From an uncultured Caryophanales bacterium (GTDB lineage: Bacteria > Bacillota_I > Bacilli_A > RF39 > UBA660), in contig CAMNCL010000008.1 in NCBI GenBank assembly GCA_946534345.1, forward strand, positions 1-39,042: a DNA stretch of 39,042 nucleotides. Direction: 5' to 3'. Below are positions 1-39,042 of the stretch, in pieces. Position 1 is the stretch's first letter. The number at the start of each line of letters is the position of its first letter. Under the pieces are notes generated by a model. It was given only the letters and a program-made list of their open reading frames with translations. It was not told the DNA's origin and did no database searches. Position numbers and translations under genes: made by a program.

Positions 1-51
1 ACTTGGTTTGGGACCAAGGGGTTGCAGGTTCAAATCCTGTCTTCCCGACCA
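1..51 (+). tRNA. tRNA-Pro(UGG), 3' part, cut by window edge
   Basis: These 51 bases are identical to positions 110-160 of the complete tRNA-Pro that follows. They hold the anticodon arm with TGG, the T arm, the 3' acceptor strand and an encoded CCA. The 5' half lies outside the window. Confidence 0.93.
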
Positions 52-83
52 TTTTATTAAGACAATTTAATATATATTTTTTT

Positions 84-160
84 CGGGAAGTGGCTCAATT
101 TGGTAGAGCACTTGGTTTGGGACCAAGGGGTTGCAGGTTCAAATCCTGTCTTCCCGACCA
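84..160 (+). tRNA. tRNA-Pro(UGG)
   Basis: A complete 77-nt cloverleaf. The acceptor strand CGGGAAG (84-90) pairs with CTTCCCG (150-156), followed by A73 and an encoded CCA. The anticodon stem CTTGG/CCAAG (111-115/123-127) encloses the loop TTTGGGA, with anticodon TGG at 118-120. It is a tandem copy of the partial tRNA at the window start, 32 nt downstream of it. UGG is the broad-reading proline anticodon. Confidence 0.97.
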
Positions 161-35200: not shown

Positions 35201-35689
35201 ATGAATAAACAAGATATTTATAATTTATTAGAAGAAAAAGGAGTATGGCACGAAATAGTAGAACATGAAGCTGTTTGGAACATGGAAGATTTAGCTAAAG
35301 TAAAATTACCATATCCAGATGCAGATGCTAAAAATGTATTTGTTAGAGATGATAAAAAACAAAATTATTACTTAATTACAGTTAAAGATGATAAGAGAGT
35401 AGATTTAAAGAAATTTAGGGAAGATCATAACACTCGTAAATTAAGTTTCGTATCTGAAAATGATTTGATGGAAATACTTAATTTAATACCTGGTAGTGTA
35501 TCTCCATTTGGATTGTTAAATGATAAAGAATGTAAAGTAAAATTCTTCTTAGACAAAGCTTTTACAGTAAATAAAGCAATAGTTGGAATTCATCCAAATG
35601 ATAATACTGCTACTGTATTTGTTAAAGCAAATGACTTAATTGATATCATTAAAGAACATGGTAACGAAGTAGAAGTAGTTAAGATTTAA
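35201..35689 (+). CDS. Prolyl-tRNA deacylase, ProXp/YbaK family
   Basis: A 162-aa free-standing editing protein that removes a wrong amino acid, typically alanine, from tRNA-Pro. YPDADAKNVFVRDDKKQNYYLI, shown here by its core KNVFVRDDKKQNYYL, and the IPGSVSPFGLLND block with the GIHPNDN motif are the family signatures of the ProXp-ala/PrdX type. ATG 35201 has AAGGAGA. Because the ProRS of this genome (3073-4512) lacks the INS editing domain, a trans-editing factor is expected. Confidence 0.92.
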   Translation: MNKQDIYNLLEEKGVWHEIVEHEAVWNMEDLAKVKLPYPDADAKNVFVRDDKKQNYYLITVKDDKRVDLKKFREDHNTRKLSFVSENDLMEILNLIPGSVSPFGLLNDKECKVKFFLDKAFTVNKAIVGIHPNDNTATVFVKANDLIDIIKEHGNEVEVVKI

Positions 35690-35718
35690 TTGACAAATTG
35701 ACACTTTTGTGGTATAAT
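35690..35718 (+). promoter_or_regulatory. Promoter of the manganese-riboswitch operon
   Basis: TTGACA (35690-35695), 17-nt spacer, TATAAT (35713-35718) with extended -10 TG at 35710-35711. A second TTGACA at 35698-35703 is too close to serve. Confidence 0.88.
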
Positions 35719-35725
35719 TTACACA

Positions 35726-35835
35726 TCAATTGAGGGAGTAGTCCTTAAACGTTATATTTCGTCATTCGGTAATACCCGGAATATAAGAAGCAATTCGGAC
35801 AAGACTTATTGAAATAATAGGTCTTGTCTTTTTTT
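35726..35835 (+). promoter_or_regulatory. yybP-ykoY (manganese) riboswitch with terminator
   Basis: The conserved loops AGTA (35737-35740) and AAGA (35801-35804) are closed above by GTCC/GGAC (35741-35744/35797-35800) and below by TCAAT/ATTGA (35726-35730/35808-35812) with GGG/CTT, leaving a 3-nt bulge. The upper arm pairs TTATATTTCG (35752-35761) with CGGAATATAA (35777-35786), enclosing TCATTC and a GGT-AAT-ACC mini-hairpin. This matches the L. lactis-type manganese riboswitch part for part. The terminator is 35798-35810 with 35816-35828, then T7. Its left arm contains AAGACTTATT, so aptamer closing excludes the terminator: an on-switch for Mn2+. Confidence 0.85.
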
Positions 35836-35860
35836 ATAGATAAGACCAAGGAGGTGGATT

Positions 35861-36208
35861 ATGAGCACAACTAGAGTTTATGAACATGAAAAAGCAGACT
35901 TTAAGAAAATGGTTAAAGAAGATATAATTGATTGTTTAATTAAAGCAGGAATAAGTGATACTTTGGCATTTGCTTTACTAAGAACCCTTTCTGAAAAAAT
36001 AGATAATATTCCTGATTTAATTACAGCACTTACTGCTTTAGCCTCAGGTTTCTACGGATTTGGTGCAGCTTTAGCTGCTTGTATGTTACTTGGAGAACTT
36101 ATAAGAATAGATAATAATTACTCATACTTATATGATTATAATGATTTAAAAGAATACAGAGAAGAAAAGAAATTACTTTTAAAAAACAAATATAGAGAAA
36201 TAAAATAA
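35861..36208 (+). CDS. Small protein under manganese riboswitch control, unknown
   Basis: A 115-aa protein, first gene after the riboswitch. Residues 1-25 are charged, 26-52 a helix (AGISDTLAFALLRTLSEKI), and 56-84 a Gly/Ala-rich hydrophobic stretch (ALASGFYGFGAALAACMLLG) that could be one long membrane segment or a buried helical hairpin. The C-terminus is basic (EEKKLLLKNKYREIK). It is not one of the families known behind this riboswitch (MntP, YkoY/TerC, P-type ATPases). ATG 35861 has AAGGAGGTG 5 nt upstream. The next gene starts 13 nt after the stop. Confidence 0.72.
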   Translation: MSTTRVYEHEKADFKKMVKEDIIDCLIKAGISDTLAFALLRTLSEKIDNIPDLITALTALASGFYGFGAALAACMLLGELIRIDNNYSYLYDYNDLKEYREEKKLLLKNKYREIK

Positions 36209-36221
36209 AGGAGGAATTAAA

Positions 36222-37301
36222 ATGAATATTGAATATATAAAATTATGTAAATTTATTGAAGATAATAAAGAATTAAATAATTATATTGAAAGACTATTAA
36301 GTACAGTAGAATATAAAGATATTGAAAAAAATCAAATTATTTTAGATAACCTACAAGAATTAGGAGATAAATATATACAAGCAGAAAGTGAAATAGAAAA
36401 AAGTAGGGAAGAATTAGAATCATTAGGTATGGTATTTACAGAGGATACTATGTTTTATCCAGAAGGACGTATTCCTGAGTATGAAGAAGACTCAAATGAT
36501 GCATTAAGAAAATATGGACATTATTCTTTTTGTCATAATGATGAATACTGTTGTTACCATGACCATGAATGGCTAAATGAAGATAGAGTGGGATATCCTA
36601 CTTCTATCAATGGTATTGAAATATCTAAAGAAAAACTTGAAGATGAAAGAGTTAATCATACATCAAAAAAAGAATATGAAAAATGGTTAAATGAACATTC
36701 TAATTTAAATGAAGAGCTAAATGAATTAGCTAAAGAAATAAATAAAGATTTAGAATTATTAGATAAAAAAATATTTGGTAAGACTAAGTTAGATAAAAAA
36801 ATAAAAGCTAATAAAGAAAAACTATTAAAATTAAATAATATAAAACTACAAGGTGATAATTTAAAAAAGAAAAGTGAATTGTTTGAAAGTTTAGATGATC
36901 ATAAATATGATTTATTAAATAATTATTTTAATTCAATAGAAGAGTGTAATAATATTTCTAAAGAAATAAATAATTCGTTTAGAAAACTATATGTATCCGA
37001 GGAAAGAGAATTGATTTCTAATGTTGATAAACTTGTAGAAGAAGCTATTCGTTTTGAAATTGTTACTCCTGAGGAAGTAGAAAAATATGATTATATTTTA
37101 ATGAATATTGATACTTCTAATGTAGTAGTATCTGATGATTATATAAAAGGGTTTGATTCTTTATCTTCTTGGTATAGAAATAGAACAACTCAATCTTTAG
37201 TAGATAGTTATGGTCGTAAAATAATGGAATTAAGAATGCAACAAGAATTTGATAATTTATCTAAAGAAGCAGAAGCTAAAGTAAAAACTAAAAATAAGTA
37301 A
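36222..37301 (+). CDS. Coiled-coil protein with Cys/His/Asp cluster, manganese riboswitch operon
   Basis: A 359-aa soluble protein that I do not recognise. It is rich in Lys, Glu, Asn and Leu. Helical or coiled-coil segments cover about 15-75 and 140-260. Between them, near 100-125, is HYSFCHNDEYCCYHDHEW, with three Cys, four His and several acids in 18 residues, a likely metal site. The C-terminal 80 residues are again helical (REL, EEVEKYDYILMNI). ATG 36222 has AAGGAGG. The preceding 115-aa gene and the Mn2+ riboswitch suggest a link to manganese. Confidence 0.75.
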   Translation: MNIEYIKLCKFIEDNKELNNYIERLLSTVEYKDIEKNQIILDNLQELGDKYIQAESEIEKSREELESLGMVFTEDTMFYPEGRIPEYEEDSNDALRKYGHYSFCHNDEYCCYHDHEWLNEDRVGYPTSINGIEISKEKLEDERVNHTSKKEYEKWLNEHSNLNEELNELAKEINKDLELLDKKIFGKTKLDKKIKANKEKLLKLNNIKLQGDNLKKKSELFESLDDHKYDLLNNYFNSIEECNNISKEINNSFRKLYVSEERELISNVDKLVEEAIRFEIVTPEEVEKYDYILMNIDTSNVVVSDDYIKGFDSLSSWYRNRTTQSLVDSYGRKIMELRMQQEFDNLSKEAEAKVKTKNK

Positions 37302-37306
37302 TTTTT

Positions 37307-37332
37307 TAAAAGCCATTGACAATGGCTTTTTT
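37307..37332 (+). terminator. Terminator of the manganese-riboswitch operon
   Basis: AAAAGCCATT (37308-37317) pairs with AATGGCTTTT (37321-37330) around GAC, then T. Its loop contains part of the TTGACA used by the next promoter. Confidence 0.88.
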
Positions 37333-37344
37333 AAGTGATAAAAT
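37316..37344 (+). promoter_or_regulatory. Promoter of the tyrosine T-box transcript
   Basis: TTGACA (37316-37321), 17-nt spacer, TAAAAT (37339-37344) with extended -10 TG at 37336-37337. The -35 lies in the loop of the preceding terminator. Confidence 0.8.
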
Positions 37345-37350
37345 TCATTT

Positions 37351-37560
37351 ATTCGGGCAGAGATTAATTCAAAGTAATATTAATGTTCAACTTAATAGAG
37401 AGCTAAGGGTTAGGTGGAACTTAGTGAGTAACGTTAATATGAATTACAAATTAGGAGTCTGAAGCGGTTTTGCGCGTTATAGCAATTAGAGTGTATGATC
37501 AAGTTCATAAATTAAGGTGGTACCACGGGTTTATCTCGTCCTTAGTTTATGAACTTTTTT
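37351..37560 (+). promoter_or_regulatory. T-box riboswitch, tyrosine specifier (UAC)
   Basis: A full-size T-box leader. Stem I base CAGA/TCTG and TAATT/AATTA encloses a specifier loop with AGTA on the 5' side and GAATTACA on the 3' side. In the glyQS reference the same place reads GAA-A-GGC-A, so here the specifier is TAC (37445-37447), tyrosine. The long stem continues to the distal loop (AAGGGTTAGGTGGAACTTAG). The T-box core is AAGGTGGTACCACGGG (37514-37529); its variable base T pairs with discriminator A73, right for tRNA-Tyr. Terminator: AGTTCATAAA with TTTATGAACT, then T6. Confidence 0.9.
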
Positions 37561-37593
37561 CATATTATAATGACAGAAAGGGAGGAATATAAA

Positions 37594-39042
37594 ATGTCAG
37601 AAATTAAATTTTACAAACATGAGCAAATACCTATGGAAATGCATAAGGTTAAAATTGTTCAACAACTAAAGCTTTTGCCAGCAGATGAAAGATTGGCAAA
37701 GATGAAAGAAGCAGGGTTCAATACATTCCAACTTCATAATGGTGATATTTTCATGGACATGTTAACAGATTCTGGTGTTAACGCAATGAGCGACAACATG
37801 TTAGCCGCAATGATGAAAGCAGACGATGCATATGCTGGAAGTGAAACATTCTATCGTATGAGAGATAAGTTAGAAGAGATTTTTGGCATTAAGTATTGCC
37901 TACCTGCACACCAAGGACGTGCTTGTGAAAATATACTTGCCAATCGTTTCGTAACACCAGGAAAATGTGTCATCATGAATTATCACTTCACTACAGCTAA
38001 AGCTCATATCACAAGACTTGGAGGTCATGTTGAAGAGCTTGTTAAAGATGAAGGATTAGTATCACAAAGTGATTTACCATTCAAAGGAAATATTGATCTA
38101 AAGAAAGTAGAAGAATGTATAAAGAAAGAAACACCTGAAAACGTAGCATTTATGAGAATTGAGTCTGGTACTAACTTAATTGGTGGACAACCAATCTCAT
38201 ATGAAAACATGAAAGAAGCTACAAAGTTAGCTAAGAAGCATGGAATTACAACTGTATTAGATGCATCTCTATTACAAGATAATTTATACTTTATTAAAAC
38301 TAGAGAAGAGAGTATGAAAGATAAAACTATCAGAGAGATTACAAGAATGATTGCAGATCTATTTGATATTATTTACTTCAGTGCTCGTAAATTTGGTTTT
38401 GCTAGAGGTGGAGCTATCTTAGTAAGAGATGAAGAAATGTTCCATTCAATGGAAGACTTAATTCCAATGTTTGAAGGATTCTTAACATATGGTGGAATGA
38501 GTGTTAAAGAGATGGAAGCTATGACTGTTGGTTTTGATGAATCAATGGATATGGATGTTATCTCTCAAGGACCACAATTTATTGATTACTGTGTAAAAGC
38601 ATTAGATGAATATGGAGTACCAGTAATTACACCAGGTGGTGGACTAGGAGCTCACTTAGATGCAATGGAAATATGTAAGCATATTCCACAAGAAGAGTAT
38701 CCAGCAGGAGCCTTAGTTTGTGCGCTATACTTATGTGGTGGAATCAGAGGAATGGAGAGAGGAACTCTATCTGAAGAGAGAGAACCAGACGGAAGTGAAA
38801 GATTTGCTTCTATGGAATTAGTTAGATTAGCTTTCCCAAGAAGAGTATTTACACTATCTCAAACAGAATATGTAATTGATAGAGTAAAATGGTTATATGA
38901 TCATAGAGACTTAGTAGGTGGATTAAAGTTCGTTCATGAACCAAAAACACTACGTTTCTTTACTGGTAGATTAGAACCAACTTCTGATTGGCCAGAAAAA
39001 TTAGTAAAAGCTTATAAAGAAGAATTCGGAGAAGATGCATAA
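37594..39042 (+). CDS. Divergent tryptophanase/tyrosine phenol-lyase-family beta-eliminating lyase
   Basis: A 482-aa PLP enzyme of the beta-eliminating lyase family, complete to the last base of the window. Family blocks are LTDSGVNAMSDNM, DAYAGSETFY (PLP-ring Tyr), HQGRACEN, NLIGGQPISYENM, LDASLLQDNLYFIK and FPRRVFT (carboxylate Arg). The PLP lysine lies in SARKFGFARGG, where tyrosine phenol-lyase has SGKKDCLVNIGG and tryptophanase SAKKDAMVPMGG. THQGR of both becomes AHQGR, so the Thr124 of tyrosine phenol-lyase is Ala. It is thus family-level certain and substrate uncertain. ATG 37594 has GGGAGGAAT. The tyrosine T-box in front suggests tyrosine as product or substrate. Confidence 0.87.
   Translation: MSEIKFYKHEQIPMEMHKVKIVQQLKLLPADERLAKMKEAGFNTFQLHNGDIFMDMLTDSGVNAMSDNMLAAMMKADDAYAGSETFYRMRDKLEEIFGIKYCLPAHQGRACENILANRFVTPGKCVIMNYHFTTAKAHITRLGGHVEELVKDEGLVSQSDLPFKGNIDLKKVEECIKKETPENVAFMRIESGTNLIGGQPISYENMKEATKLAKKHGITTVLDASLLQDNLYFIKTREESMKDKTIREITRMIADLFDIIYFSARKFGFARGGAILVRDEEMFHSMEDLIPMFEGFLTYGGMSVKEMEAMTVGFDESMDMDVISQGPQFIDYCVKALDEYGVPVITPGGGLGAHLDAMEICKHIPQEEYPAGALVCALYLCGGIRGMERGTLSEEREPDGSERFASMELVRLAFPRRVFTLSQTEYVIDRVKWLYDHRDLVGGLKFVHEPKTLRFFTGRLEPTSDWPEKLVKAYKEEFGEDA

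Follow-up and report, generated by a model that had tools for sequence, protein, structure and literature searches.

A probable Mn2+-responsive ON riboswitch of the yybP-ykoY class, lacking helix P2, ahead of a two-gene accessory cassette of an uncultured gut bacterium

Introduction

Mn2+ riboswitches are regarded as controllers of manganese homeostasis genes, chiefly exporters. In the solved structures of this class an invariant adenosine of loop L3 senses the ion through its N7 (PMC6754395), while in L. lactis the ligand-stabilised helix P1 prevents termination of transcription (PMC11087558). Two further systems are close to the locus described here: the GDT1/UPF0016 family, one member of which, MneA of V. 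cholerae, is a Mn exporter (PMC13274385), and the S. pyogenes RNA SSRC10, which precedes a putative calcium transporter (PMC3675131).

The window, that is, the whole stretch of 39,042 nucleotides analysed here, belongs to an uncultured gut bacterium and carries a cassette organised as one promoter-riboswitch-Shine-Dalgarno-two-gene unit. An earlier note on this DNA had described a riboswitch leader, a terminator and a two-gene operon, and all three were found where it had placed them (Table 1).

Results

Layout of the locus

The leader between the promoter and ORF1 spans around 130 nt, and sister leaders show the same promoter arrangement upstream. On the other side of the cassette, the promoter of the T-box unit displays 11/12 consensus matches, its TTGACA sitting inside the terminator-like hairpin. 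At the far end of the window (1-157) two near-identical tandem tRNA genes are found, the first truncated by the contig start, which suggests that the assembly broke within this tRNA repeat.

Table 1. Features of the cassette, its flanks and the second P2-less leader of the genome
Feature	Position	Strand	Remarks
ybaK-type gene	35201-35689		aminoacyl-tRNA editing domain; directly 5' of cassette promoter
Promoter	35690..35718	+	TTGACA-17-TATAAT, TG ahead of -10; 12/12 consensus matches
P1 5' strand (segment 1)	35726..35734	+	TCAAT-t-GAG; pairs with 35805-35812
L1 5' strand	35734..35741	+	GGGAGTAG; invariant in sister leaders
P1.2	35741..35800	+	35741-35744 with 35797-35800; closes three-way junction
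Joining strand	35745-35751	+	TTAAACG; replaces canonical P2
P3	35752..35786	+	35752-35761 with 35777-35786; contains L3 and apical P3.2
L3 element	35760-35764	+	CGTCA, discriminator A35764; role of L3 from PMC6754395
Apical P3.2 hairpin	35768-35776	+
P4 hairpin	35787..35796	+	GAA-GCAA-TTC; covarying helix by RNAalifold
L1 3' strand and P1 3' strand (segment 2)	35800..35812	+	L1 3' strand CAAGAC, 35800-35805
Intrinsic terminator	35797..35835	+	5' arm segment 2, 3' arm segment 3; 14-15 bp, z -5.95
Segment 4	35838..35847	+	AGATAAGACC; can pair with 35820-35829 of terminator 3' arm; abuts Shine-Dalgarno
Shine-Dalgarno of ORF1	35848..35854	+	AAGGAGG; from sequence
ORF1	35861..36208	+	115 aa
ORF2	36222..37301	+	359 aa; own ribosome site
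Terminator-like hairpin and T-box unit promoter	37308..37344	+	hairpin 37308-37332 overlapping promoter 37316-37344
T-box leader	37351-37546		111 bits (Rfam)
Beta-eliminating lyase gene	37549-39042		T-box-controlled
Second P2-less leader of same genome	L023:5095-5192 = G000:C10:23094-23192	minus	before deoxyribosyltransferase-like gene PF15891

Structure of the aptamer

BLAST searches with the leader returned relatives in the genus and beyond, together with the second copy in the same genome. Thirteen P2-less leaders share the succession GGGAGTAGTCCTTA[AG]AnG, a P3 helix with a TCA/ACA loop, GG[AG]C[AG]AGACTT and then a terminator. When the structure formed by P1, P1.2, P3 and P3.2 was evaluated on their alignment, 95.6% of cells were paired (82% in shuffles), compensatory double changes occurred at 11 pairs (0/500 shuffles), and the covariation score reached 0.397 against 0.145 in shuffles (0/500) and 0.05-0.12 for slid versions of the structure. 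All cells of P1.2 (100%) and 98.5% of those of P3 are paired, the latter helix with double changes at 8/10 pairs; P1 also covaries across the 13 leaders, and its copy in the window carries a bulge. Helix P2 is absent from the 13-leader alignment, so that a three-way rather than a four-way junction is predicted, and the strand that takes its place, TTAAAnG, is near-invariant in all of these leaders.

The residues expected around the metal are kept. Both L1 strands (GGGAGTA and AAGAC) and L3 with its Mn-sensing adenosine fall in invariant columns, the L1 5' strand being almost invariant among canonical class members as well. This adenosine corresponds to A35764 by sequence mapping to A41/A48 of the solved structures (PMC6754395). 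The AGTA, AAGA and CGTCA elements that the earlier note had listed are thus all present, with their roles to be reassigned: AGTA and AAGA, there taken as two conserved loops, are the two strands of L1, and the Mn-sensing L3 is the CGTCA element.

Membership of the yybP-ykoY class

The window leader is not matched by RF00080 either at its gathering cut-off (45 bits) or at E 10, and the same holds for the whole genome. A score below threshold had been named beforehand as what would refute the assignment; formally it does so, but the result is uninformative, since bona fide members fail too. No RF00080 match above 45 bits was obtained in 198 genomes of the class, where exporter-associated members reach only 19-34 bits; among the best matches, at 22-34 bits, are leaders before MntP-like proteins, P-type ATPases and exchangers (gene names by sequence recognition). 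As exporter-associated members also fall below the cut-off, the miss is not decisive; it reflects the low sensitivity of the curated model in these lineages.

Covariance models built from the leaders themselves matched reciprocally. R1, derived from the 13 P2-less leaders with that of the window included, recovers 12/14 class-level Mn riboswitches (E up to 0.04) and 4/4 GDT1/UPF0016-associated leaders, two of which score weakly (E 0.3-0.6). It matched 0/9 unrelated loci. R2, derived exclusively from 14 class-level leaders with that of the window left out, gives the leader the top score of the window (E 1.8e-4; 28.6 bits against 17.7 for the runner-up) and finds 41/43 sister and GDT1 loci. When genome contigs were scanned with a pattern of the P2-less core, it matched in gut Bacilli and also in three contigs of Chloroflexota and one of Austwickia. 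In these last four the element precedes a GDT1/UPF0016 gene; three of the genes were run against Pfam, and each scored E 1e-35 or lower for GDT1. Because P2-less forms precede GDT1 genes and the class member L047 also seems to be without P2, this helix appears dispensable. Judged by homology, the identity of the window leader as a yybP-ykoY riboswitch is secure, as the earlier note had recognised, and Mn2+ is its likely ligand.

These reciprocal matches, together with the compensatory changes, also make it barely credible that the leader is a mere attenuator or small RNA devoid of metal sensing, a reading to which the silence of Rfam on any riboswitch here would lend itself. Its predicted terminated transcript of ~110 nt resembles S. 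pyogenes SSRC10 (RF02617), the model of which matches the sister leaders L094, L097 and L105; SSRC10, however, precedes a putative calcium transporter (PMC3675131) and is probably a terminated streptococcal Mn riboswitch itself, filed as an sRNA. The RF02617 matches, all below cut-off, coincide with those of the Mn-riboswitch model (L094:1481-1577, L097:1502-1614, L105:1523-1615). In L097 a second, weak aptamer match lies just downstream of the first (1503-1594 and 1624-1718).

Switching and the fourth segment

The terminator stem (35797-35829, followed by a T run) includes in its 5' arm both the L1 and P1 3' strands. Since the P1 3' strand sits inside this arm, P1 and the terminator are mutually exclusive, P1 being a switch helix that competes with termination in the ON configuration, just as had been proposed. 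Segment 4 can form a duplex of -15 kcal/mol with the terminator 3' arm (0/200 shuffles). An equivalent segment occurs at 5/200 shuffles or better in 16/21 P2-less leaders, with ~0.6 expected, and was not found in those exporter leaders of the family that could be scored; only P2-less leaders are relied on for these counts, those of P2-containing leaders being affected by misplaced T runs (for example L095 and L169, and L037, L038 and L052 in the outgroup).

In the mechanism envisaged from these pairings, the P1 3' strand would join the terminator when Mn2+ is absent, and transcription would end at 35829-35835. With Mn2+, L1 and L3 would dock around the ion and stabilise P1, which would block the terminator and allow transcription of ORF1-ORF2, leaving the freed terminator 3' arm available to pair with segment 4 just ahead of the ribosome site. 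Both the direction of the response to Mn2+ (ON) and the locking of this ON state by segment 4 are inferred.

An accessory cassette

Two relatives, G170 and G177, ~90% identical in the region, are without positions 35690-37306, absent as a single block: in both of them ybaK is joined directly to the hairpin/T-box unit, setting the right edge of the insert at ~37306. Gain of the cassette in this lineage, with ybaK on one side and the T-box/beta-eliminating lyase unit on the other, is probable, being simpler than loss because the two ORFs occur in no relative. Neither an integrase nor terminal repeats were identified at the cassette. G158 also lacks the second cassette of the genome, a riboswitch with a nucleoside-2-deoxyribosyltransferase-like gene, at the corresponding site, which in G177 holds a different gene; in G159 the equivalent unit lies on another contig than the flanking gene.

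The two proteins

ORF1 encodes a protein with a single hydrophobic segment of Gly/Ala type (about residues 53-83, hydropathy 1.72). The ORF2 product, an acidic protein for which long helices are predicted, carries a Cys/His cluster, CHNDEYCCYHDHEW, at residues 104-117 (motif in 8/5000 shuffles). Searches for homologues gave nothing convincing, with weak matches at E 0.002-1, in genomes of the family (145) and of the genus (39), in viral contigs, phages, PDB, Pfam, PHROGs, NCBIfam and PADLOC, in genome contigs (ORF1 only) or in plasmids (ORF2 only); the earlier view of both genes as being of no known family therefore stands. Neither protein matched any of the Mn exporter families (MntP, GDT1, TerC, P-type ATPase, CDF) significantly in Pfam, NCBIfam or PDB. 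AlphaFold models computed without an alignment were unusable (mean pLDDT 43 and 60).

A kinship between ORF2 and an L059 protein through a shared C-terminal EAKVKTK was considered and dropped (seven residues, E 0.95). A C-x5-H-x-H-x-Y motif, to which the C..HxHxW cluster of ORF2 is comparable, occurs in an unnamed family of exported proteins under riboswitch control (L096, L145, L160, L163, L165). The most likely guess is that ORF1 is a small membrane protein and ORF2 a soluble, possibly metal-binding partner, both made at high Mn2+.

Genes under the same switch in the clade

The genes directly behind the switch were surveyed for 66 non-identical leaders from the family and its contigs, on automatic gene calls and counting leaders rather than independent events. 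First genes encode exported or lipoprotein-like proteins (17), deoxyribosyltransferase-like proteins of PF15891 (9, all P2-less), the VLKSIKPEEY family (6), SPFH/HflC proteins (5), Na/Ca exchangers (4), P-type ATPases (2), NfeD (2), AdoMet decarboxylases (2) and others, exporters thus representing about one in ten of the genes under this switch in the clade. Individual instances include Mn-type riboswitches directly before NfeD and SPFH/HflC-like membrane proteins (L095, L099, L100, L107, L110, L133, L159) and before an S-adenosylmethionine decarboxylase-domain protein (L158, L172); in G164, two riboswitch-gene units lie ~600 nt apart (L133, G164:C3:7819-8516). Among the papers covered, mostly freely accessible ones, none was found to report a Mn riboswitch ahead of an SPFH, NfeD or deoxyribosyltransferase gene.

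The nine P2-less leaders ahead of nucleoside-deoxyribosyltransferase-like genes, the near-invariance of the joining strand and the association with non-exporter genes might indicate a change of ligand in the P2-less aptamer, the joining TCCTTAAAnG helping to bind another or an additional compound, for example a nucleotide-related one. Such a change is improbable, given that the metal-site residues of L1 and L3 are kept, TCCTT P2-less forms precede GDT1 antiporters in other phyla, and non-exporter genes likewise stand behind aptamers of the same genus that do have P2.

Regarding the genes themselves, P-type ATPases and Na/Ca exchangers, which are Mn homeostasis genes, stand behind relatives of the aptamer in the family; ORF1 and ORF2 are not recognisable as genes of that kind. 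The proposal that they form a manganese detoxification, storage or sensing pair is left unproven: they have no homologues to provide context, are absent from two close relatives, and share their switch with many unrelated genes. The same observations, including the great diversity of genes to which the switch is attached, fit a genuine riboswitch in front of genes unrelated to Mn, namely orphans of recent acquisition or origin that came to lie behind a Mn-inducible leader already present. This is a serious alternative, of a likelihood somewhat short of even; it is opposed by the dedicated promoter-riboswitch-Shine-Dalgarno-two-gene organisation and, more faintly, by the C..HxHx[YW] signature that ORF2 has in common with one riboswitch-controlled exported-protein family.

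Discussion

Considering that (i) covariance models match reciprocally and compensatory changes back the helices, (ii) the discriminator adenosine is kept, (iii) the unit has its own promoter and is cleanly absent from G170 and G177, (iv) the aptamer precedes GDT1/UPF0016, P-type ATPase and Na/Ca exchanger genes, and (v) P1 and the terminator overlap as in L. lactis, the cassette is with high probability controlled by a P2-less yybP-ykoY riboswitch that switches transcription on in response to Mn2+. Against this explanation count the failure of RF00080, the missing P2, the bulged P1 and the want of a demonstrable conserved association between the riboswitch and ORF1/ORF2. A bolder version is rather doubtful: in it a compact, four-segment P2-less Mn2+ subclass would control exchangeable cassettes in uncultured gut Bacilli, Mn2+ would thereby induce a clade-specific accessory set of lipoproteins, SPFH/NfeD proteins, deoxyribosyltransferase-like proteins and orphan pairs, not exporters alone, and ORF1-ORF2 would be a new Mn-handling pair.

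The cassette belongs to a Mn-switch-controlled gene set of gut Bacilli that comprises exporters and many clade-specific proteins, with accessory status seen in the two cases examined. If the preferred explanation of a Mn2+-responsive switch is correct, a form of the riboswitch missed by the reference model would control many genes other than exporters in this large clade of uncultured gut bacteria. This would extend what bacteria are seen to do in response to Mn2+ and would give many orphan genes a functional hint open to testing; it also suggests that the class is undercounted in surveys relying on RF00080.

Comparison with known systems

With the yybP-ykoY riboswitches of RF00080, as represented by the L. 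lactis and X. oryzae structures, the window leader shares L1, L3, the discriminator adenosine, helices P1, P1.2, P3 and P4, the mutual exclusion of P1 and terminator and the ON architecture. It differs from them in being without P2, with a three-way junction, a conserved TTAAAnG joining strand and segment 4, in being unrecognised by RF00080 and in regulating orphan genes. The GDT1-associated P2-less leaders of Chloroflexota and Austwickia display the same GGGAGTAGTCCTT ... GGnCGAGACT core without P2, but are GC-rich, precede a divalent cation antiporter and depart in loop details. The SSRC10 model (RF02617, Streptococcus sRNA 10, filed in Rfam as an sRNA) matches sister leaders exactly at the riboswitch, although not the window leader itself. 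Finally, the leader is similar to classic attenuators in its alternation of 1:2 and 3:4 pairings (ON) with the 2:3 pairing (OFF).
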